Shown one piece after another: positions 1 to 24,208 of a stretch of 24,208 nucleotides of DNA; position 1 is the first letter of the stretch, and each line of letters opens with the position of its first letter. A program made the position numbers and the translations under genes. The stretch comes from a virus: positions 1 through 24,208 of IMG/VR virus record IMGVR_UViG_3300045146_000625; one strand, 5' to 3'. A model generated the notes under the pieces. It was not told the origin of the DNA. It saw only the letters and a program-made list of their open reading frames with translations, and made no database searches.

Positions 1-963
1 CTATTTATCAACATTATATTTTTTATTTAGATGCTTTATATAAGCGAGTCCTTTTGGAGTCATCACTATCCTCCTCACAAATGTACCAGCCATTTTTTCA
101 TAATTAGCCAATCCATAAGTTACCAGTGTTGGGATGATTTTATTTATAATAAACTTATAGCTTTCATGTTGTGAAGGAGATGTGTCCATTCCAGATACTA
201 GATCATCCCTCAGAGATAAAACTAAGCTTATGAGGTCCCTTTCAATATCCTCATCCCCCCCCAAAGTCTCGGCATCAATTGTTAGTTTTATTTTAGAGAA
301 ATCTTTATCAATCTCATTAAACTCATCTTCGTCATTATCAGTCAGCGCACGTTTCAATTTTAGATCTAAAGCCTCTTTTTCCTTTCTTAGTTTTCTTATT
401 TCCTCATTCAACTTGGTGATTTCGGTTGTGATTTTAGTCGTGTCTGGGGCATCAGCACCGGAAATCCATCCTGTAAGAGGCCTTTCGCTGGCGATTCTCG
501 GTAGGCTTTCCATAACGGCAATTTTAATATCTTTCGTATCCTCAAAAAAACAAACCATATTGGATGTAACTTTTTTCTTAAATTCTGAGTATAAAGTCCT
601 GTTTTCCAGCTCCATGACACTTTGCCCCTGGGCTTTAACTTTGCTTTCAAGCGCATGATCGTAAATAACAATAGAGAAAAGTGGCTTATTAGTTTCCATG
701 GCATAATTGTATTCAAGCTCGGTGTAGCTAAGTCTGGACTCTGGTTCTATTGAACCGTACCGCCCACCTAGAATAAGAATATAAACATCAGACTCATCAA
801 TCCAACGCTTTATTATCTCCCATTGACTTTTATCGCTAGCGGTAAACAGCTCCATTCCTGCGGGTATATCGCCATTTTTCAATATAGCAGAAACTGCCGC
901 TTGTCTTTCCTCGATTAAGTCAGTGAAAGTTGACGATATAAATACTTGTAATCTCTTTCTCAT
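1..963 (-). CDS. DUF4062 (TIR-like) protein, probable phage-borne defence cargo
   Basis: The protein has 320 residues. Residues 1 to about 150 carry the DUF4062 hallmarks: FISSTFTDL (8-16), GMELF (36-40), YILILGGRYGS (61-71) and SYTELEY (79-85). This domain has a TIR/SLOG-like Rossmann fold and is often found at the N-terminus of bacterial immunity proteins, where it is thought to act on nucleotides or as a signalling module. A charged helical, probably coiled-coil stretch follows at about 175-210. The C-terminal 90 residues look like a small helical/winged-helix domain (MTPKGLAYI). The start is supported by AGGA seven bases upstream. The gene begins 16 bases after the integrase stop on the same strand, so it is probably cotranscribed with int. 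It is more AT-rich than the structural genes. The domain call is firm. A defence role is inference from family and position, and no catalytic activity can be assigned. Confidence 0.85.
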   Translation of the reverse strand: MRKRLQVFISSTFTDLIEERQAAVSAILKNGDIPAGMELFTASDKSQWEIIKRWIDESDVYILILGGRYGSIEPESRLSYTELEYNYAMETNKPLFSIVIYDHALESKVKAQGQSVMELENRTLYSEFKKKVTSNMVCFFEDTKDIKIAVMESLPRIASERPLTGWISGADAPDTTKITTEITKLNEEIRKLRKEKEALDLKLKRALTDNDEDEFNEIDKDFSKIKLTIDAETLGGDEDIERDLISLVLSLRDDLVSGMDTSPSQHESYKFIINKIIPTLVTYGLANYEKMAGTFVRRIVMTPKGLAYIKHLNKKYNVDK

Positions 964-1993: not shown

Positions 1994-2399
1994 TTACCCA
2001 CTTCATCATGATCATGAGCATCATCGCTGTCGATTTAACGGTTTGGTTGGCAAACATCTTTTCATTTTCCGACTTCTTCGGTTCTGGCTTAAAAGCGGAA
2101 TCTAATTGTTTTACTAACTCAGCCGCATAAGGCTTGAAATCATCAACCGATTTAATTTTTCGGCTTATGTCATCTGATAATAAATTTTTGCTGTATAGCC
2201 CTGCAATAAAGTCAGCACAGGTTGCCAGTTTATTTTGCTGTGATGCCTTTTGCCACGTGAGAGCGTTAGCCTCATGTAGTGTTCCACCTTGATACCAACT
2301 GTTAGCAAATGCGACGTTTGAACTAATCACCATAATTGCTACAAAAGCAAAGAAACCATATTTAAAAAAGCATGCCATCCGAGCATTAATTGATTTCAT
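1977..2399 (-). CDS. Small secreted protein in the repressor-integrase operon (unknown function)
   Basis: The protein has 140 residues with a clear Sec signal peptide: a basic start, a hydrophobic core at about 11-30 (FFKYGFFAFVAIMVISSNVAFA) and a likely cut after AFA at residue 32. The mature part starts NSWYQGGTLHEANALTWQKASQQNKLATCADF, a pattern I associate with small uncharacterised proteobacterial exported proteins. The function is not known to me. Near the C-terminus is a hydrophobic, methionine-rich segment (TAMMLMIMMKWV), which may be a buried helix. The gene overlaps the repressor stop by four bases (ATGA) and overlaps int at its end, so it should be translated in the lysogen. Lysogenic conversion or superinfection exclusion in the periplasm is a reasonable guess from this position, but nothing in the sequence proves it. 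Confidence 0.8.
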   Translation of the reverse strand: MKSINARMACFFKYGFFAFVAIMVISSNVAFANSWYQGGTLHEANALTWQKASQQNKLATCADFIAGLYSKNLLSDDISRKIKSVDDFKPYAAELVKQLDSAFKPEPKKSENEKMFANQTVKSTAMMLMIMMKWVNANGS

Positions 2400-2764
2400 T
2401 GTCCCTCTGCCTTTTTATTTGGTTTTGAATGCGCGAACGAATCGCCAACCGCCTGTATATTTAATCGTGCCGAGTCATCCATTGCTCGATAGTTATCAAC
2501 TAGCCTTTGTTCTTCTATTGATATTTTTGATTCGGGGGTTTTTACCCCGGTTAATATATAAGCAACGTCTATCCCAAAATGACTGTTAAGTAGCGCAAGG
2601 GTAGCGGCGTCGGGCATGGTTTCTCCCCGCTCGTACTTCCCCCAGGTACGGGTAGATACGCCAAATGTGGAGGCGATGGACTCTTGGCTATTACCTGATT
2701 TTTCCCTTTCTTCGCGCAGGCGGCTACCGATCAGGAACAATAATTCCTCTTTTTCGATTGACAT
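2396..2764 (-). CDS. XRE-family prophage repressor (CI/C-like)
   Basis: The protein has 122 residues with an N-terminal helix-turn-helix of the XRE/Cro-CI type at about 10-67 (RLREEREKSGNSQESIASTFGVSTRTWGKYERGETMPD). A short helical tail follows (LVDNYRAMDDSARLNIQAVG), seen in many small phage repressors. There is no S24/LexA-type peptidase domain, so RecA-dependent self-cleavage is not expected. This is like P2 C, which is not SOS-inducible. It is the first gene of the leftward operon and is divergent from the early genes, with about 60 bases between them that should hold both promoters and the operators. An AGGAAG sequence lies upstream of ATG 2764. The repressor role is inferred from fold, size and position next to int and a Cox-like gene. 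Confidence 0.9.
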   Translation of the reverse strand: MSIEKEELLFLIGSRLREEREKSGNSQESIASTFGVSTRTWGKYERGETMPDAATLALLNSHFGIDVAYILTGVKTPESKISIEEQRLVDNYRAMDDSARLNIQAVGDSFAHSKPNKKAEGQ

Positions 2765-2821
2765 AGGAACATTTCTTCCTTAAATTGTGCTGTATAGGAA
2801 CTTAGTGGATCACAATATAAC
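2763..2821. promoter_or_regulatory. Divergent repressor/early promoter region with candidate operators
   Basis: This is the gap between the leftward repressor and the rightward early operon. ATAGGAAC occurs twice as a direct repeat (2763-2770 and 2794-2801), 31 bases apart, about three helical turns. An inverted repeat ATTGTG/CACAAT spans 2784-2789 and 2811-2816 and extends to nine bases with one mismatch. A possible early -10 is TATAAC at 2816-2821. No good -35 is evident. Either repeat could be the repressor operator. That assignment is inference. Confidence 0.55.
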
Positions 2822-2824
2822 ACT

Positions 2825-3016
2825 ATGAAACAAGCCAATCATGCGCCGCGCTCACGTTTGCCCGGTGGAATTGCTGCAAAAAAACCGATCCATATGCGCT
2901 TATCAGATACCGAGCGCACGGAGCTGGAGATCATCGCAGCTAAAGAAAGTCGTTCGATTTCAAGTATGGCGCGCCTGGTATATCTGCGCGGCATTGAATC
3001 TATCCAGGCGGAATAA
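2825..3016 (+). CDS. Small ribbon-helix-helix-like early protein
   Basis: The protein has 63 residues. After a basic N-terminus, the segment KKPIHMRLSDTERTELEIIAAKESRSISSMARLVYLRGIESI (about 19-59) has a beta-strand followed by two helices, as in Arc/MetJ-type ribbon-helix-helix DNA-binding proteins. It is the first gene of the early operon, between the repressor and the Cox-like gene, so a role in the lysis/lysogeny switch or early-promoter control is plausible. No Shine-Dalgarno sequence is visible before ATG 2825, and the candidate -10 lies only a few bases upstream, so translation could be leaderless. ATG 2894 is an alternative but would remove the strand region. A frame-shifted open frame over the same bases has no recognisable features. 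Confidence 0.7.
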   Translation: MKQANHAPRSRLPGGIAAKKPIHMRLSDTERTELEIIAAKESRSISSMARLVYLRGIESIQAE

Positions 3017-3028
3017 CGGGAGGTAAGC

Positions 3029-3232
3029 ATGGCGAATACCACTATAAATATCACCGTTCCTACAGGATACGTTTCACTTGATGCATACGCGGAGATGACC
3101 AAATTACCCATTGGCACCTGCCGCCGTATGGTGCGAGACGGCCGGATCATCATTCGTCCAAAGGTGAAACCAAAGGACAAGATCGAGGTAAACCTTGTCG
3201 CCATGCTGAAAGACGCAATAGCCAACAGTTGA
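3029..3232 (+). CDS. cox: Cox-like regulator/excisionase
   Basis: The protein has 67 residues and is preceded by a strong ribosome site (GGAGGT). The segment GYVSLDAYAEMTKLPIGTCRRMVRDGRIIIRPKVKPKDKIEVNLVAML is a winged-helix MerR/excisionase-like fold, with the recognition helix in PIGTCRRMVRDGRI. This fits P2-type Cox proteins (usually 60-100 residues), which repress the lysogenic promoter and help Int excise the prophage. Its place near the start of the early operon, facing away from the repressor, supports this. The fold call is good. The Cox name rests on position and resemblance rather than strong identity. Confidence 0.75.
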   Translation: MANTTINITVPTGYVSLDAYAEMTKLPIGTCRRMVRDGRIIIRPKVKPKDKIEVNLVAMLKDAIANS

Positions 3233-3241
3233 GGCATAAAC

Positions 3242-3454
3242 ATGCAGCCAATTGAACACACTATAACCAAAGTAAGCCGCAATTCTTCACGCTATCGTGG
3301 CTTTGTTATCACTTATCGTCCGCGCACTATCGTTAACCCAATAGCCAGATATGAAGTAAGCCAAGGCGATCAGTCTTATGGCTTATTCGATGCGCAAGCA
3401 CAGGCGACCGGCTATATCGACCAACTTTACTCACAGCACCAGGCGGCAGCATGA
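3242..3454 (+). CDS. Small early phage protein, unknown
   Basis: The protein has 70 residues: a basic, Arg/Tyr-rich N-terminal half (NSSRYRGFVITYRPRTIV) followed by YEVSQGDQSYGLFDAQAQATGYIDQL. No known domain is recognised. The start ATG 3242 follows GAGG (3231-3234) at the end of cox, and its stop overlaps the next start (ATGA at 3451-3454), so it is translated within the early operon. It is compact, probably a beta-hairpin plus helix. The function is unknown. Confidence 0.7.
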   Translation: MQPIEHTITKVSRNSSRYRGFVITYRPRTIVNPIARYEVSQGDQSYGLFDAQAQATGYIDQLYSQHQAAA

Positions 3455-3879
3455 ACAGTCAATTACCAAAACAACAAGAAAGATGGTTTTTGGTGGCAAT
3501 TGAGGGAGCCGGCATTGATGGACGAGTTCTCTCGGCAGACCAGATTAGGCAAATGGCTGCCAATTTTGAACCAAAGGAACTCCGCGTCAAAGTGACCAAA
3601 GATTTTCTGTCGAAAGGGTCAGCAGGCTATCTAAGTGATGTTACCAGCGCTGCGCTAGGGGAAAGAAACGGGAAAGTAGCGCTTTTGGTTGCGTTTTACG
3701 AAACCGAAGCTTTACGCGCCATGGCTGAAAATGCAAAGGAAAATAATCACCCCGTTTTTCCTGCTATTGGGATGATGAAACGTGACGGTAGTTATTGGCT
3801 TGCAGAAGTGGGTATCACTCGTAATCCGAGCATCTTAGGCACAGACCCTTTAACTTTTGATAAAAAGGCCGAAGCATGA
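3451..3879 (+). CDS. Truncated gpO-like protein lacking two protease catalytic residues
   Basis: The protein has 142 residues and aligns by eye to the N-terminal protease half of the gpO capsid scaffold encoded at 15155-15955. Shared landmarks include WFLVAIEGAGIDGR versus FFRVAVEGATSDGR, MAANFEP versus MAETFSP, GKVALL versus GKLALL, and AEVGITRNPSILGTDPLTF versus TGLAFTDNPASLGCEPMKF. gpO uses an Asp-His-Ser triad (here D17, H46 and S104). In this copy the Asp is kept (D23), the His position appears to be Asp (D51) and the Ser position is Ala (A105). The helical scaffold C-terminus is absent. It overlaps both neighbours by ATGA, so it is an intact early gene, not debris. It is probably an inactive paralogue. 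Possible roles are a decoy, an assembly inhibitor acting on this or other P2-like phages, or a repurposed fold. These are speculative. Confidence 0.75.
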   Translation: MNSQLPKQQERWFLVAIEGAGIDGRVLSADQIRQMAANFEPKELRVKVTKDFLSKGSAGYLSDVTSAALGERNGKVALLVAFYETEALRAMAENAKENNHPVFPAIGMMKRDGSYWLAEVGITRNPSILGTDPLTFDKKAEA

Positions 3880-4148
3880 AACAGGCATACATCACATTAG
3901 TGGGCGACCTACTGGCGCAGTACCACACCAAAGCCAACAACATCAACGCCGCCACGGCGATCGCGCCAGCGGTACGTTCTGTTTCGCTGAACGATTACGC
4001 ATTCCGTCTGTGCATCGGCCTGACTGGGCTGCTGAGTACAGCAGAAGCCGCCGGCCACGCCCCGGATGCCGCCGTTATCGACAGCCTGATCATGCGCTGC
4101 AACAACGGCGATATTCCTAACCCGCGCACTGTTGAACAGTCCGCCTGA
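3876..4148 (+). CDS. Small early phage protein, unknown
   Basis: The protein has 90 residues (MKQAYITLVGDLLAQYHTKANN...). It looks all-helical and alanine-rich (NINAATAIAPAVRSVSLNDYAFRLCIGLTGLLSTAEAAGH), soluble, with no known motif. It starts inside the stop of the gpO-like gene (ATGA overlap at 3876-3879). It is more GC-rich than its upstream neighbours, which suggests a different history. Its stop is followed immediately by the hairpins of a candidate antisense RNA. The function is unknown. Confidence 0.7.
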   Translation: MKQAYITLVGDLLAQYHTKANNINAATAIAPAVRSVSLNDYAFRLCIGLTGLLSTAEAAGHAPDAAVIDSLIMRCNNGDIPNPRTVEQSA

Positions 4149-4229
4149 GCCGGGAAAGCCCGGACCTATCTGAGAGCACACCCTCCCATCAACGTGTGGG
4201 GGATTGGCGTCCAGGGTGTGCTCCCAGAT
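4149..4229 (+). ncRNA. Candidate C4/isrK-like structured antisense RNA
   Basis: Immediately after a stop codon lie two hairpins. The first is CCGGG-AAAG-CCCGG at 4150-4163. The second is a long stem pairing 4168-4184 with 4213-4229 (16 of 17 bases matched) and enclosing 28 bases. The inner region exposes TCAACG (4189-4194) and ATTGGC (4203-4208). Both have perfect six-base complements just inside the next gene, in the reversed order needed for antiparallel pairing: GCCAAT at 4276-4281 and CGTTGA at 4296-4301. This architecture (two recognition segments against the start of the following cotranscribed gene) is that of the P1/P7 C4 antisense RNA and the related isrK family. The family call is from memory of that architecture and needs a covariance search. 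Confidence 0.55.
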
Positions 4230-4266
4230 GGGTATAACAAAGTATAAAGATATGAGAGGAAATAAT

Positions 4267-4554
4267 ATGATTTCAGCCAATGGCAAAGTTATTTGCGTTG
4301 AAGATGAAAAAATTAATACTCCATTTATCTACAGAGGGACCCTAACCGATGCTGAACTGCGTGAGTGGTTGCGCAGTGTGGAGCGAGCACTAGAACAGAA
4401 AAGCTCCTCAACAAATTTTGTCGAAGAGCTAAGTATACAACTCGAAAATGCGAGGATAAAGGAAGCTGAGAGAAACGAATTTATTTCAGCAAGCGTTTAT
4501 CCCAGAGGTCAGGATCCCATTCAGAGTCCTGATAACCTGAATATTGGTAAATAA
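4267..4554 (+). CDS. Small early protein downstream of the C4-like RNA, unknown
   Basis: The protein has 95 residues from ATG 4267, chosen because AGAGGAA lies at the right distance. A longer frame from 4204 would read through the RNA structure and has no ribosome site. The sequence has a short beta-like start (SANGKVICVEDEKINTPFIYRGTLTDAELREWL) and a helical acidic/basic second half (SVERALEQKSSSTNFVEELSIQLENARIKEAERN). No known domain is recognised. If the preceding structure is a C4-type RNA, this gene would be its target, in the position held by icd/ant in P1. Its last 74 bases overlap a convergent minus-strand gene. Confidence 0.6.
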   Translation: MISANGKVICVEDEKINTPFIYRGTLTDAELREWLRSVERALEQKSSSTNFVEELSIQLENARIKEAERNEFISASVYPRGQDPIQSPDNLNIGK

Positions 4555-4951
4555 AACGCTTTGAATCATAGCCATGGAAATTGAAATCATGGCCTTGTAG
4601 ATATCTAATGGCTTCATCGGGGATCGTCACACTGTTTAACTCGTTGGAAAGCAAAATTAAGGCATCCTCGAGATTAATATTTTTAGCTTCATTTAATGAC
4701 AGATTTTTGTTATTCACCAAATATGACACAAGAGCATTTTTACCTTTGAGGATAAGCCGATGTCGATCGTTTTCATTTTTATATTCAAACAGAAACTTAT
4801 CAAGCTTGAATATAATAAGAGCACGCTCAGTGAAATAATTATGCTCATCCGAACGCAAATCAATGTCGCCTTCATCAATGTTCAAAGAGGTAAGAACGTT
4901 CTTGTGTGTGTTTACGAGCAAACCAAAATAATCCGAAAGAGAGATTTGCAT
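4481..4951 (-). CDS. AT-rich minus-strand cargo gene in the early region, unknown
   Basis: The protein has 156 residues from ATG 4951, preceded by AAGGAAT at good spacing. A GTG one codon upstream is also possible. It is hydrophilic, acidic and rich in Asn, Asp and Tyr (NTHKNVLTSLNIDEGDIDLRSDEHNYF, FNFHGYDSKRFIYQYSGYQDSEWDPDLWDKRLL). No membrane segment or known family is recognised. It opposes the early operon and is visibly more AT-rich than the replication genes. These are typical marks of an independently expressed moron that could be on in the lysogen. It overlaps the 3' end of the preceding plus-strand gene tail-to-tail by 74 bases. A defence or exclusion role is possible but unsupported by any motif. 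Confidence 0.65.
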   Translation of the reverse strand: MQISLSDYFGLLVNTHKNVLTSLNIDEGDIDLRSDEHNYFTERALIIFKLDKFLFEYKNENDRHRLILKGKNALVSYLVNNKNLSLNEAKNINLEDALILLSNELNSVTIPDEAIRYLQGHDFNFHGYDSKRFIYQYSGYQDSEWDPDLWDKRLLK

Positions 4952-5276
4952 CACGATTCCTTTTTGTGGAGTGGTTGAAAGCTATACCTGTGTTCCTGCC
5001 AGAACTTGGTAGGTATGGTGAAGATACCACAACGCGGCCGGGCGCGTAATCCCGGAGCATTGAGGGTAATAAAAGCGTGTCCGGTCGCGTCCTAATAAAT
5101 TAATGGGCTGCAATAGAGCGGATAGGTTGCCCCAACCATGCGCCGGGCATGGCTAAAACCCGGCATATATTTCAGTGGGCACATTCAGCGCTTACTGAAA
5201 TATATCCACCACCCGAAATAAAAAATGCCGCCTTTTTGGTGGCGGGTTTCCTACATCCTGAATTCAGGGGGTTTTT
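4952..5276. other. Structured intergenic region with three tandem hairpins
   Basis: I see no convincing gene in these 325 bases. They hold the likely promoter of the leftward 4481-4951 gene and, further right, three consecutive inverted repeats. These are GCCGGG/CCCGGC (5142-5147 and 5159-5164), a perfect 12-base repeat ATATATTTCAGT/ACTGAAATATAT (5165-5176 and 5194-5205, 17-base loop), and CCGCC/GGCGG (5228-5232 and 5241-5245). The last has an A/T-rich tract on its left, so it could act as a terminator on the minus strand. The repeats sit directly upstream of the second block of early genes (5277 onward) and may control entry into it. Confidence 0.5.
5165..5205. repeat. Perfect 12-bp inverted repeat upstream of the replication block
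   Basis: The arms are ATATATTTCAGT (5165-5176) and its exact complement (5194-5205), separated by 17 bases. It could be an operator for a dimeric or tetrameric regulator such as the early ribbon-helix-helix protein, or an RNA hairpin. The AT-rich outer arms resemble protein-bound DNA sites more than terminators. Confidence 0.6.
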
Positions 5277-9869: not shown

Positions 9870-9994
9870 CACTATCAGCAGACATAATATTGCAACAGAG
9901 GAAAAATGAGTGTAAAAACTGAGATTTGAGGTGTGGAATCATGCACAATAATTAACCCCCCCTCATGTTAAAAAACATTATTATTAGGTTTGAA

Positions 9995-10504
9995 ATGAAT
10001 AGACAACTTATAGAAAAAATTAAAAATGAATGCCTTCGCATTGAAGAGGATGCGCTCTATTCGTCGAAGTCACATTATAATGCCTCTGTTCCATGGGATA
10101 AATGCAATTTAATAGTTGGCGTGGCTATAGCAATATTAGCTGCACTTACTGGATTAAGCGCTGTAAAAGATATGACAATAGTAACAATAGTTATATCCAT
10201 AATACTGACGATTTTGACTGCAATAAATACTGCTTTGAACCCAAGCAAGAAGGCGAGTCAGTACAAATCCGCAGCAGGAGAATATAATAACCTTAAAAAT
10301 AATGTAAGGATATTTCGCGAGATCGAACTACATGAAACAAACTTGCCAGATAAAGAATTGAAAGAGAAAATACAAGTACTTTCTGATCACAGGAATCAGT
10401 TAAATATTACTTCACCAACGATCCCTCGTTGGGCTTATAAAATGACCCAATCTGACTTCAATAATGATTTTGTTACTTACGACGTTGACAAGGAAAATAA
10501 ATGA
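9995..10504 (+). CDS. SLATT-domain two-TM protein (candidate CBASS-like effector)
   Basis: The protein has 169 residues from ATG 9995, chosen because AGG lies six bases upstream. ATG 9965 adds ten residues but has no ribosome site. The protein has an N-terminal helix (QLIEKIKNECLRIEEDALYSSKSHYNA), two closely spaced membrane helices (about 38-56 and 61-81 from this start; VGVAIAILAALTGL and IVTIVISIILTILTAIN), then a cytosolic helical tail. This is the SLATT layout (SMODS- and SLOG-associating two-TM effector). Such proteins are predicted to form pores when a cyclic-nucleotide signal arrives. Its stop overlaps the next gene by ATGA, and that gene encodes a CD-NTase-like enzyme, as expected for an effector-synthase pair. 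AT-rich composition marks it as acquired cargo. Confidence 0.82.
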   Translation: MNRQLIEKIKNECLRIEEDALYSSKSHYNASVPWDKCNLIVGVAIAILAALTGLSAVKDMTIVTIVISIILTILTAINTALNPSKKASQYKSAAGEYNNLKNNVRIFREIELHETNLPDKELKEKIQVLSDHRNQLNITSPTIPRWAYKMTQSDFNNDFVTYDVDKENK

Positions 10505-11280
10505 GCGTTCAATCATATTTAGATTCTATAGCTAGAAATGCGATTTTGAAAGATAGCTCGGTAACAACATCGATAGCTACATTAAAAACAAGACTGAATT
10601 TATATTTTAATGCTACAGATGTAACTAATCATTTTACATTTGGTTCAAACACCAGATATACGATGCTGCCAAGAACATACGATCCTCAGTCTGATGTTGA
10701 CTACATGATTGTATTTAACAATACCGGCTACCAACCACAAACCTATCTCAATAAGTTGAAAAACTTTGTTGGATATTATTATACCTCATCAGAAATAAAG
10801 CAAAGCCACCCAACTATAAGGTTAAACCTTAATCATATTACTTTTGAATTAGTCCCTGCAATATATAACATATTTTATGGATATCAAATCCCTGCCCCTG
10901 CTGATAATTTTCAATCATGGATAAATACAGATCCTAATGCTTTTAATCTTAGCTTAACAGAAAAAAACAAGAATAATTATCACCTAATAAAACCATTAAT
11001 AAGAATTTTAAAATACTGGAATGCTAATGCCGGATATGTTTTTGAGTCTTATGAATTAGAAAAAAACATCGTGAGCATGAATTTTTTCTTTTGTCATAAC
11101 ATAAAAGATTACTTTTACAGTGCGGTAGAATCAATTTATTGCTCCTATTTAGCACCACAATGGAAACAAAACGCCGTAAACAAGCTAAAGAATGTGGTTG
11201 CAGAAACGAAGTTGAACGAAGCTAATGGATGGAACATCTTAGCTGAAGCAGAAATAAAAAAAATATTACCTGAAATTTGA
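10501..11280 (+). CDS. CD-NTase-like (SMODS) nucleotidyltransferase
   Basis: The protein has 259 residues. It has the pol-beta nucleotidyltransferase signature of CD-NTases: GSNTRYT (G48, S49), DVDYMIVF with metal ligands D65 and D67, and a third acidic residue in FELVPA (E116). The basic R52 and T54 after the GS motif also fit. The C-terminal helical region includes LIKPLIRILKYWNAN, which resembles the core of the OAS/cGAS-type helical domain. It should make a cyclic or linear oligonucleotide signal. The partner SLATT gene is directly upstream with a four-base overlap. It is shorter than many CBASS synthases. No Cap2/Cap3 ancillary genes are present, so this would be a minimal type I-like system. 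Enzyme class is confident. The defence role is inferred from the pairing and location. Confidence 0.85.
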   Translation: MSVQSYLDSIARNAILKDSSVTTSIATLKTRLNLYFNATDVTNHFTFGSNTRYTMLPRTYDPQSDVDYMIVFNNTGYQPQTYLNKLKNFVGYYYTSSEIKQSHPTIRLNLNHITFELVPAIYNIFYGYQIPAPADNFQSWINTDPNAFNLSLTEKNKNNYHLIKPLIRILKYWNANAGYVFESYELEKNIVSMNFFFCHNIKDYFYSAVESIYCSYLAPQWKQNAVNKLKNVVAETKLNEANGWNILAEAEIKKILPEI

Positions 11281-15154: not shown

Positions 15155-15955
15155 ATGCCAATATCAAAATTTTTCCGCGTCGCCGTTGAAGGCGCGACCA
15201 GTGACGGCCGCAAAATCGAACGCCGTCATATCGAAGAAATGGCGGAAACGTTCTCGCCTGCATTCCGCCCGGCGCGCGCCAACCTTGAGCACTACCTGAG
15301 CATTTTTCCAGACGGCGACTTTAAGGCCCAGGGCGATGTTGTCGCGCTGAAGGCGCAGGAAATCACCTCCGGCCCACTGAAAGGCAAACTGGCGCTGCTG
15401 GCGCAGGTTGATGCGACGGATGGACTGGTGAAGCTGAACAACGATCGGCAAAAAATTTACACCAGTATCGAGTATTACCCGCAATTTGCCGACACCGGCA
15501 AAGCCTACCTGACCGGGCTGGCGTTTACCGACAATCCGGCGTCGCTGGGTTGTGAACCTATGAAATTCACCGCCAACAACCTGGCCGAAACCAGCGGATT
15601 GCACTTCGGGGCGATGGAAGAAACCGTGATGGAATTTGACGCGCCAGAAGCCGACAAACCGAACCTTCTGACCCAAATCAAGACCATGTTCAGCAAAAAA
15701 CAGCACTCCGATGACGGCCGTTTTTCCGACGTTCATCAGGCGGTGGAGTTTGTCGCAGAACGCCAGCAAGGGCTTGAAACCAAAATCGAAGCATTTTCCG
15801 GCCTGAAAACCACCGTCGAATCGCTGGAAAGCCAGCTGAAGGACGCGAAAACCGAGCTTTCCGAGCTGAAAACCACCCTCAGCACTTCTGACCGTTCTAC
15901 CCATCGCCGCGACCTGTCTACCGGCAGTGGCGATAGCGTCTTAACCGACTGCTGA
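15155..15955 (+). CDS. O: Capsid scaffold and maturation protease gpO
   Basis: The protein has 266 residues from ATG 15155 (MPISKFFRVAVEG), which aligns with the P2 start. An upstream extension of 27 codons lies over the promoter and is not used. The N-terminal half is the serine protease with triad D17 (SDGR), H46 (NLEH) and S104 (YTSIE), matching D19, H48 and S107 of P2 gpO. The C-terminal half is a helical scaffold (VEFVAERQQGLETKIEAFSGLKTTVESLESQLKDAKTEL) ending GDSVLTDC, like P2. It guides gpN into proheads, cleaves gpN, gpQ and itself, and leaves fragments inside. An early-region relative without the Ser and His is encoded at 3451-3879. Confidence 0.97.
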   Translation: MPISKFFRVAVEGATSDGRKIERRHIEEMAETFSPAFRPARANLEHYLSIFPDGDFKAQGDVVALKAQEITSGPLKGKLALLAQVDATDGLVKLNNDRQKIYTSIEYYPQFADTGKAYLTGLAFTDNPASLGCEPMKFTANNLAETSGLHFGAMEETVMEFDAPEADKPNLLTQIKTMFSKKQHSDDGRFSDVHQAVEFVAERQQGLETKIEAFSGLKTTVESLESQLKDAKTELSELKTTLSTSDRSTHRRDLSTGSGDSVLTDC

Positions 15956-21771: not shown

Positions 21772-22679
21772 TGGCGACGATTGACCTGAGTCAGCTACCC
21801 CGCCCCAATGTCATTGAGGCGCTGGACTATGAAACGCTCTTTGATGCGCGTAAAGAGCGATTGATCAGCCTGTACCCGGAGGAAGAACGGGAAGCAGTGC
21901 GCCGCACGCTGGGCTATGAGTCCGAGCCGATCGTCAAAGTCCTGCAAGAATCCGCCTACCGTGAAGTGTTGTTGCGCCAGCGCGTCAATGAGGCGGCGCA
22001 GGCCGTAATGGTGGCCTACGCCATGAGCAGCGACCTCGACCAACTGGCCGCAAACAACGACGTGAAACGATTGGTGATCGATCAGGGTGATCCGGGTGCT
22101 GTCCCACCCGTACCGCCGACGATGGAAAGCGATGCCGACCTGCGCCAGCGCGTCCCCGCCGCCTTCGAAGGTATGAGCGTCGCCGGCCCGACCGGGGCCT
22201 ATGAATTTCATGCGCAGAGCGCTGACGGCAAAGTCGCCGACGCCTCGGCGATCAGCCCTGCGCCGGCAGAAGTCACAATCAGCGTGTTATCCCGCGACGG
22301 CGACGGCACAGCATCGCCGGAACTGCTCGCCGCCGTCAGCGCCGCGCTGAATGACGAGGAAGTCCGCCCGGTGGCCGACCGCCTGACCGTGCAGTCTGCA
22401 AAAATTGTTAACTATCAGATTGATGCCACGCTCTACGTTTACCCCGGCCCGGCGATTGAGCCGATCATGGCCGATGCCGAACTGCGTCTAAAAAACTACA
22501 TCAACGAGCAGCGCCGGCTGGGTCGCGATATTCGGCTATCAGCCATCTATGCCGCCCTGCATACCCAGGGCGTGCAGCGCGTTGAACTGGCCGCGCCGCT
22601 CGCTGACGTGGTGCTAGATCGTACTCAGGCCGCCAACTGCACCGATTACCACATCAGGATCGGCGGTTCAGATGAATAG
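21771..22679 (+). CDS. J: Baseplate protein gpJ
   Basis: The protein has 302 residues, like P2 gpJ. Landmarks are TIDLSQLPRPNVIEALDYETLFDARKERLISLYPEEE at the N-terminus, ESAYREVLLRQRVNEAAQAVMVAYAMSSDLDQLAANNDVKRLV, MSVAGPTGAYEFHAQSADGKVADASAISPAPAEVTISVLSRDGDGT and the C-terminal RTQAANCTDYHIRIGGSDE. It is the T4 gp6-like wedge component that forms the outer baseplate. It overlaps gpI by eight bases. Confidence 0.97.
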   Translation: MATIDLSQLPRPNVIEALDYETLFDARKERLISLYPEEEREAVRRTLGYESEPIVKVLQESAYREVLLRQRVNEAAQAVMVAYAMSSDLDQLAANNDVKRLVIDQGDPGAVPPVPPTMESDADLRQRVPAAFEGMSVAGPTGAYEFHAQSADGKVADASAISPAPAEVTISVLSRDGDGTASPELLAAVSAALNDEEVRPVADRLTVQSAKIVNYQIDATLYVYPGPAIEPIMADAELRLKNYINEQRRLGRDIRLSAIYAALHTQGVQRVELAAPLADVVLDRTQAANCTDYHIRIGGSDE

Positions 22680-23271
22680 CCTGTTGCCGCCTGGTTCATC
22701 GCAGCTTGAGCGGCGAGCAGCGGAGGCGTGCGCGGGCATCAGCGATCTGAACGTCCCGCTGCGTGACCTGTGGAACCCGGCGCGCTGCCCGGTAAAGTTT
22801 TTGCCCTATCTGGCCTGGGCGTTTTCGGTAGACCGCTGGGACGAGAAATGGACGGCGGCAGAGAAGCGCAAGGCCGTGACGGATGCCTTTTACATACATC
22901 GCCGAAAGGGAACGGTTGCCGCCATTCGGCGTGTCATTGAGGCAATGGGTTTTTCAATGTCGATCGCTGAATGGTGGGAGGTCGCCGACCCGCGCGGCAC
23001 GTTCCGCCTCACTATCGACGTGAACGACGTCGGGATCACTGACGAAATCGTCAGGGAGCTGGAGCGATTGATTGGCGACGCCAGGCCGGTTAGTCGCCAC
23101 ATTGCCCAGTTGAACATTGCGACCGCCGTCACTGGCGTTATCTACTCCGCCATTACGGTACATGACGGCGATATCGTCACCATTTATCCGGCCGACTACG
23201 AGCCGGACGACAGCATCAAATATAACGGCGTTGCGGGTTTCAGCGGCGATTACCACTATTCCGGGGAGTGA
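22672..23271 (+). CDS. I: Tail protein gpI
   Basis: The protein has 199 residues, usual for P2 gpI. The N-terminal half is conserved: SLLPPGSSQLERRAAEACAGISDLNVPLRDLWNPARCPVKFLPYLAWAFSVDRWDEKWTAAEKRKAVTDAFYIHRRKGTVAAIRRVIEAMGFSMSIAEWWE. gpI joins the baseplate wedge to the tail fibre encoded next. The C-terminal quarter (GDIVTIYPADYEPDDSIKYNGVAGFSGDYHYSGE) is more variable between phages. Its stop lies one base before the fibre start. Confidence 0.96.
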   Translation: MNSLLPPGSSQLERRAAEACAGISDLNVPLRDLWNPARCPVKFLPYLAWAFSVDRWDEKWTAAEKRKAVTDAFYIHRRKGTVAAIRRVIEAMGFSMSIAEWWEVADPRGTFRLTIDVNDVGITDEIVRELERLIGDARPVSRHIAQLNIATAVTGVIYSAITVHDGDIVTIYPADYEPDDSIKYNGVAGFSGDYHYSGE

Positions 23272-23272
23272 T

Positions 23273-24208
23273 ATGACGAAAATTACCGAAAACAACCATT
23301 GGGAAGACGAGATTTATCAAATCGAGCGCGGCGATAAAGTCACCGGCGGCCGTGGCGGCGTTGCCAATATTCAGGCGCAGCAGCTGGCAAACCGCACGCA
23401 GCATTTAAAGGCAGAAGCCGAACGGCTAAATGGGCTGGCACTAAGTTCGAGTGGATCATACGAGAATCAAGAGCAGGCGCAAAAAGCCATTGATGCCGGC
23501 ATTGAAAAACATCGATTCTTCACCGTCTGGTCAGACTCTTCAAAGTTTTGGTCTGAAAAATATGAAAATGTGAATGGTGTAGCAACACCGACCGGCGTCA
23601 CGCTGTCAAGCGGTGAATATTTGAATGAGGTCGGTGAAATTGCAACTGAAGCGGCAGAGCGTTCACAGAAAATCACTAACGTTTCAGATTTGCGGGATGA
23701 ATTTCAAAACAAAATCATTGGTGCAATTGGTTCTGAGGATTTCAAGATACCATTTTATGTAACTGAAAATGGCGATTCATTTATCAGTGGCATGAGGATT
23801 ATCAACGTTCCCGGCAAGGGCGCAGTATTTACTGATAGATTCCTTGTTCCCTATTTTTGCACCCCTGATTATGAAAATAACGAGGGAATCCCCGTTATCG
23901 GAAACTTTGCAGTGCCTGAGCATGTAATACGCAAAATTGATATAAATGGTGTTCTGGGCATCAATAATGAAGGGCAATCTTTGTCGGTAGGCGGCACAGA
24001 CCAAGCGCATGTGAAAATAGTTAACGATATTCAACCACACAAAAATAAAACGTTCAGCGGTTCAATACGTAGCAAGAACCCCGACGCAGATACATCAATC
24101 CCGCTGGTTGAGAGTAACTACGTTATTCCGGGGTTTGAGAAATACCCACAATCGGAAACCTATCTCAGTGCCTTTGTGAATGAGCTGACGAGAAAAATGA
24201 TGGCAGAG
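23273..24208 (+). CDS. H: Tail fibre protein gpH, N-terminal part (runs off the window)
   Basis: The frame is open from ATG 23273 to the last base (312 codons), with a GGGGAG site upstream. The N-terminus (MTKITENNHWEDEIYQIERGDKVTGGRGGVANIQAQQLANRTQHLKAEAERL) has the common fibre-attachment pattern EIYQ(I/L)E...V.GG..G..N.QA.QLANRT. After about residue 60 the protein changes: the coding DNA becomes AT-richer and the sequence (KHRFFTVWSDSSKFWSEKYENVNGVATPTGVTLSSGEYLNEVGEIATEAAERSQKITN, then a beta-rich part) is not P2-like. This is expected of modular fibres, whose distal part decides host range. The receptor-binding end and any chaperone gene lie beyond the window. Confidence 0.9.
   Translation, partial: MTKITENNHWEDEIYQIERGDKVTGGRGGVANIQAQQLANRTQHLKAEAERLNGLALSSSGSYENQEQAQKAIDAGIEKHRFFTVWSDSSKFWSEKYENVNGVATPTGVTLSSGEYLNEVGEIATEAAERSQKITNVSDLRDEFQNKIIGAIGSEDFKIPFYVTENGDSFISGMRIINVPGKGAVFTDRFLVPYFCTPDYENNEGIPVIGNFAVPEHVIRKIDINGVLGINNEGQSLSVGGTDQAHVKIVNDIQPHKNKTFSGSIRSKNPDADTSIPLVESNYVIPGFEKYPQSETYLSAFVNELTRKMMAE

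Follow-up and report, generated by a model that had tools for sequence, protein, structure and literature searches.

The capsid protease of phage P2, gpO (Pfam family PF05929, Phage_GPO), combines a protease domain (residues 1-141) with a scaffold half (residues 195-284) and is encoded between the terminase gene P and the capsid gene N. Herpesvirus assemblins and HK97-type prohead proteases are likewise active enzymes of capsid maturation. The satellite proteins Sid, from P4, and CpmB, from SaPI, redirect the capsids of their helpers by means other than a dead protease domain. A laboratory mutant, gpO S107A, yields uncleaved procapsids (PMC7552001), and P2-like phages are in competition with satellites (PMC9122126). 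Additionally, immune defenses can be set off by a capsid protease: two papers state that the type I CBASS cyclase EcCdnD12 is bound and activated by the prohead protease of Bas13 (PMC11312562, PMC12409349).

The stretch of DNA that we analyzed (24,208 nucleotides, referred to as the window) carries a P2-like prophage. At positions 3451-3879, adjoining the lysis/lysogeny switch genes, lies an intact gene for an inactivated copy of the capsid protease domain. The full gpO gene is separate and begins 11.7 kb away. The features that bear on this locus are as follows.

2396-2764, minus strand: divergent helix-turn-helix protein, likely the lysogeny repressor, judging from its sequence and position
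2758-2786, plus strand: sigma-70-like promoter match TTGACA-17-TAAATT between the repressor and the early operon, a consensus match only
2825-3016, plus strand: Arc-like repressor (phrog_3431), first gene of the early operon
3029-3232, plus strand: Cox-like excisionase/repressor (phrog_575), which puts the locus in the early operon
3242-3454, plus strand: 70-residue protein (phrog_2492), overlapping the pseudo-protease start by ATGA
3451-3879, plus strand: gpO-protease-like pseudo-protease of 142 residues; Asp kept, Ser replaced by Ala105, His by Phe52 (Asp51 adjoining), no scaffold tail
3876-4148, plus strand: 90-residue protein (phrog_2549), its start overlapping the pseudo-protease stop by ATGA; directly after the 70-residue gene in relatives without the insert
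15155-15955, plus strand: true late gpO, protease plus scaffold, 266 residues, D17-H46-S104 intact

Sequence and predicted fold of the early gpO-like protein

The open reading frame at 3451-3879 is intact, and its product matches PF05929 with E = 2.2e-13 and 50.9 bits; the curated cut-off, which we took as the criterion for membership in the sequence family, is 33.6 bits. The homology to the gpO protease claimed in an earlier, sequence-only reading of this DNA is thus far beyond chance. PHROG profiles also place the protein in the gpO family and not in an unrelated one, with matches to the head maturation protease family (PHROG_11933, 1.4e-19) and the head scaffold family (PHROG_73, 1.9e-13). 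The Pfam match joins residues 11-140 to positions 2-139 of the 268 in the profile, which is the protease part only. The reading frame stops just past this domain, a few residues beyond the 141 boundary, so that the product is about the size of the P2 domain and the scaffold half is absent, as had been claimed. Being above the Pfam cut-off, the gene risks being annotated automatically as an active capsid scaffolding peptidase, and pipelines that trust Pfam would give 3451-3879 a label that its product cannot live up to.

An AlphaFold model of the pseudo-protease, built from a 43-row alignment, has a mean pLDDT of 86 and a pTM of 0.80. The corresponding values for the gpO domain are 89 and 0.84, and the order of strands and helices is nearly the same, with the caveat that the two models are not fully independent because both alignments mix early and late sequences. 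In the viral structure library BFVD, the best match is a P2-like protein, the scaffolding protein of Serratia phage KSP20 (E 1.3e-9, TM 0.80), and prohead proteases of other phages rank below it. The best two PDB matches are herpesvirus assemblin proteases at probabilities of 0.97-0.99, no PDB match falling below E 0.001; a sequence search found no solved structure of gpO itself. The pseudo-protease is predicted to keep the assemblin-like gpO protease fold, the outcome that the sequence-only reading had anticipated. It resembles P2 gpO in protease-domain sequence, in predicted fold and in an invariant DGR motif. Unlike the active assemblin and HK97-type enzymes, it has no catalytic Ser or His.

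A multiple alignment with 105 late gpOs shows what happened to the active site. P2 residues D19, H48 and S107 fall at the aligned catalytic positions, as the earlier reading had stated. That reading was also right that Asp23 is kept, that Ala105 occupies the Ser position and that no His is present; its assignment of the His position to D51 has to be revised, since the gpO His aligns with F52 and the Glu that precedes it in gpO aligns with D51. Strand ends in the AlphaFold models agree with F52 (strand 47-50 in the pseudo-protease, 41-44 in gpO, with the His two residues further) in a comparison of strand positions. Across the five early family members described below, both His and Ser are lost in every case, whereas all 105 late gpO domains keep the Asp-His-Ser triad. 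Within the early family, the conserved residues concentrate on strand 1, in the DGR loop and on the former Ser strand. The FADTGxAY loop and the TD-PAS residues of gpO are gone, as are several residues past the last strand.

Judged by these substitutions, the pseudo-protease cannot cut by the gpO mechanism. It makes the same nucleophile change, Ser to Ala, as gpO S107A. That mutant is artificial, full length and still scaffolds, whereas the pseudo-protease is natural and has lost the His and the scaffold domain as well. Could it still be a protease that uses other catalytic residues? Asp23 and the acidic residue before the His position are retained, but Pro-Ala-Ile is invariant on the nucleophile strand, and the nucleophile position is Ala in all five members, never Ser, Thr or Cys, which makes an active enzyme very improbable.

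An early clade in a variable accessory slot

The five early members, all from one virus collection, are the protein in the window, a close relative in record L001 (87% identical, from a single-protein scan) and those of L118, L119 and L126, which were found by scans with the replication protein and the 90-residue neighbor followed by family alignments. All five exceed the PF05929 cut-off and lie at the same early place, right after the cox-like region, and not between P and N as gpO does. A full late gpO is also present in each of the four carrier records long enough to show one, L126 being an 11.6-kb fragment. In a phylogenetic tree, the early proteins form one side of a branch with 100/100 support and a long stem, well apart from every late gpO, those of the carrier phages among them; because the branches are long, it is uncertain exactly where the root lies and how the inner branches are ordered. 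This inactive clade spans about 60% residue divergence. With only 27% identity between the pseudo-protease and the late gpO of the same phage, and with the two in separate clades, a recent duplication of the phage's own gpO is ruled out. The early set is an old paralogue of the gpO protease domain with a single origin, and it has stayed inactive in several phage lineages. The gpO family itself is known; what is new is a pseudo-enzyme branch that occupies another place in the genome and includes a fusion form. Here a phage capsid protease has given rise in nature to a pseudo-enzyme, which has long been kept in other genomic surroundings and probably with different expression.

Our literature search found no description of an early gpO-like copy. 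The window protein matches 279 annotated phage and 56 plasmid records, each phage record at one place, and the matches listed are late gpOs; the same was seen when the L118 and L126 proteins were used as queries against annotated phages and plasmids. Among the matches listed, no annotated phage record carried an early copy, and candidates in plasmid records of Vibrio campbellii, Serratia and Rahnella turned out to be late gpOs. Two scans of bacterial genomes, using short peptide patterns that reach close relatives only, returned no member, and GenBank phages contained no DNA relatives of positions 2400-5000.

The gene occupies a precise position. In relatives without the pseudo-protease, the 70- and 90-residue genes overlap directly (GCGGCAGCATGAAACAGG), and the insert in the window sits exactly between two copies of GCATGAA. 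Other phages leave the same ATGA junction empty or fill it with other small genes, so we regard it as a variable accessory slot. The pseudo-protease is found in five of 81 phages that have the 70-residue gene, a sample that comprises the 80 best loci for this gene plus the window and is not exhaustive. ATGA overlaps flank the pseudo-protease gene on both sides (3451/3454 and 3876/3879), in line with the earlier proposal that it is an intact, translationally coupled gene.

In three records the domain and a homologue of the 70-residue protein form one in-frame fusion (202 residues in L118 and L119, 205 in L126). These records represent two lineages, and two of the three are near-identical at the locus. 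In L210, L211 and L212 (about 2552-3470), the 70-residue protein instead has another fusion partner, a C-terminal region some 90 residues long that is unrelated to gpO. Fusions of both kinds, and the company of small early accessory genes, would suit a domain re-used for purposes unrelated to capsids, as a binding module that extends the 70-residue protein in host take-over or gene control. We give this possibility some weight, short of favoring it: the fold core and the surroundings of the former active site are kept, and a general module would need neither.

Coding sequences were compared within two pairs. Between the window and L001, dN/dS is 0.33-0.39, with 19 nonsynonymous changes against 26.5 expected (p = 0.0035); between L118 and L119 it is 0.22-0.32 (p = 0.031). 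Pooling both pairs gives p = 0.0004 for purifying selection in what is a simple binomial test on small numbers of counted changes. The earlier claim that the gene is under selection gains support from this test, which disfavors a pseudogene. Neighboring genes have a dN/dS of about 0.1 in most comparisons, so the constraint on the pseudo-protease is real but weaker than theirs. The higher ratio resembles that of genes caught in an arms race or loosely constrained, and it would suit the decoy role proposed below. Together with the patchy distribution, it might also be taken as a sign that a gpO gene gained by horizontal transfer is decaying into a remnant without function. Such a remnant is unlikely, since the gene is intact in all five records, its dN/dS is below 1, one inactive clade has lasted over the divergence given above and the ATGA coupling is exact. 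The predicted fold, the loss of Ser and His in five of five early members against none of 105 late gpOs, the single old clade, the selection results and the gene order all support the idea of a retained pseudo-protease in the early operon.

Probable early expression and possible roles

Upstream of the gene lie the Arc-like and Cox-like genes and, next to the divergent repressor, a promoter-like site; by analogy with P2, this gene order points to early lytic expression. Promoter-like matches in the early region are no more numerous than expected from shuffled sequence or chance. Early genes of E. coli N1420 showed no useful similarity to the 70- and 90-residue neighbors. Loss of cutting by the gpO mechanism, set beside the retention and occasional fusion of the domain, makes binding the simplest proposal: the pseudo-protease probably binds a target rather than cleaving one.

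One candidate target is capsid assembly. When another P2-like phage co-infects, the dead domain would bind that phage's gpO or gpN N-arm, or else the capsid that a satellite has borrowed, and block maturation. Its derivation from gpO fits such a role, as do the uncleaved procapsids made by gpO S107A with the same Ser-to-Ala change (PMC7552001) and the rivalry between P2-like phages and satellites (PMC9122126), and an identity of 27% to the phage's own gpO could spare self. We give this role about as much weight as re-use of the domain. Against it, the protein has neither the scaffold tail nor the gpO-specific loop past the Ser strand, and its gene is early rather than late, in an operon that is presumably silent in the lysogen. 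Classical, prophage-encoded superinfection exclusion is less likely for a similar reason, as a repressor-controlled early operon would be off in a lysogen. If the pseudo-protease does bind gpO or gpN, P2-like phages would have a new way to interfere with rivals or satellites. It would then share with Sid and CpmB the binding of helper capsid machinery; those proteins are satellite-encoded and are not protease domains.

We prefer a different explanation over both capsid interference and re-use of the 70-residue module, and put its probability at about one in three: the dead paralogue in the accessory slot is an early decoy for sensors of capsid proteases. Made before the late genes switch on, the decoy would occupy immune sensors for capsid proteases without activating them, and the real gpO, made later, would go unnoticed by the occupied sensors. 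The sequence-only reading had suggested that the protein blocks superinfecting phages, interferes with satellites or delays self-assembly; early expression would be explained at least equally well if the protein were a decoy directed at defenses that recognize capsid proteases. The idea is modeled on Bas13, whose prohead protease is reported to trigger defense, whereas the pseudo-protease would be a dead decoy. More tentatively, there may be a family of such decoys, dead copies of a phage's own class of capsid protease that are made early and blind sensors, whether type I CBASS or others. In the literature we found neither a report of a P2-type gpO triggering CBASS nor a description of a dead decoy of a capsid protease. 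The pseudo-protease has no match in PADLOC, a library that covers defense and not counter-defense. Given that a CBASS cyclase is known to respond to a prohead protease, the pseudo-protease provides a simple way to ask whether phages turn dead copies of their own immune trigger into decoys.

Other features of the window

A CBASS-like pair lies at 9965-11280, between gpA and the portal gene, and consists of a SLATT protein (NCBIfam SLATT_4; PADLOC 2TM effector) overlapping an oligonucleotide cyclase (PADLOC, 1e-112). No CBASS cyclase was found in the other four carrier records, one of which is the 11.6-kb fragment L126. With the cyclase in one of the five carrier records, a fixed partnership with the pseudo-protease is not supported.

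At the right end of the window, no plus-strand reading frame of at least 60 codons follows the tail gene at 22672-23271, leaving 23272-24208 empty in this respect. The tail fiber genes of P2 lie at the corresponding position, past the tail gene. The record seems to be cut or to be a damaged prophage.

Two reading frames at 4204-4554 (plus strand) and 4481-4954 (minus strand) are convergent and overlap, and the minus-strand gene matches the NCBIfam ECs1072 family of phage-associated proteins (7.5e-31). Finally, a 320-residue gene at 1-963 (minus strand), downstream of the integrase, encodes a protein that starts MRKRLQVFISSTFTDLIEER; it has no NCBIfam or PADLOC match of note and looks like a DUF4062-type protein.
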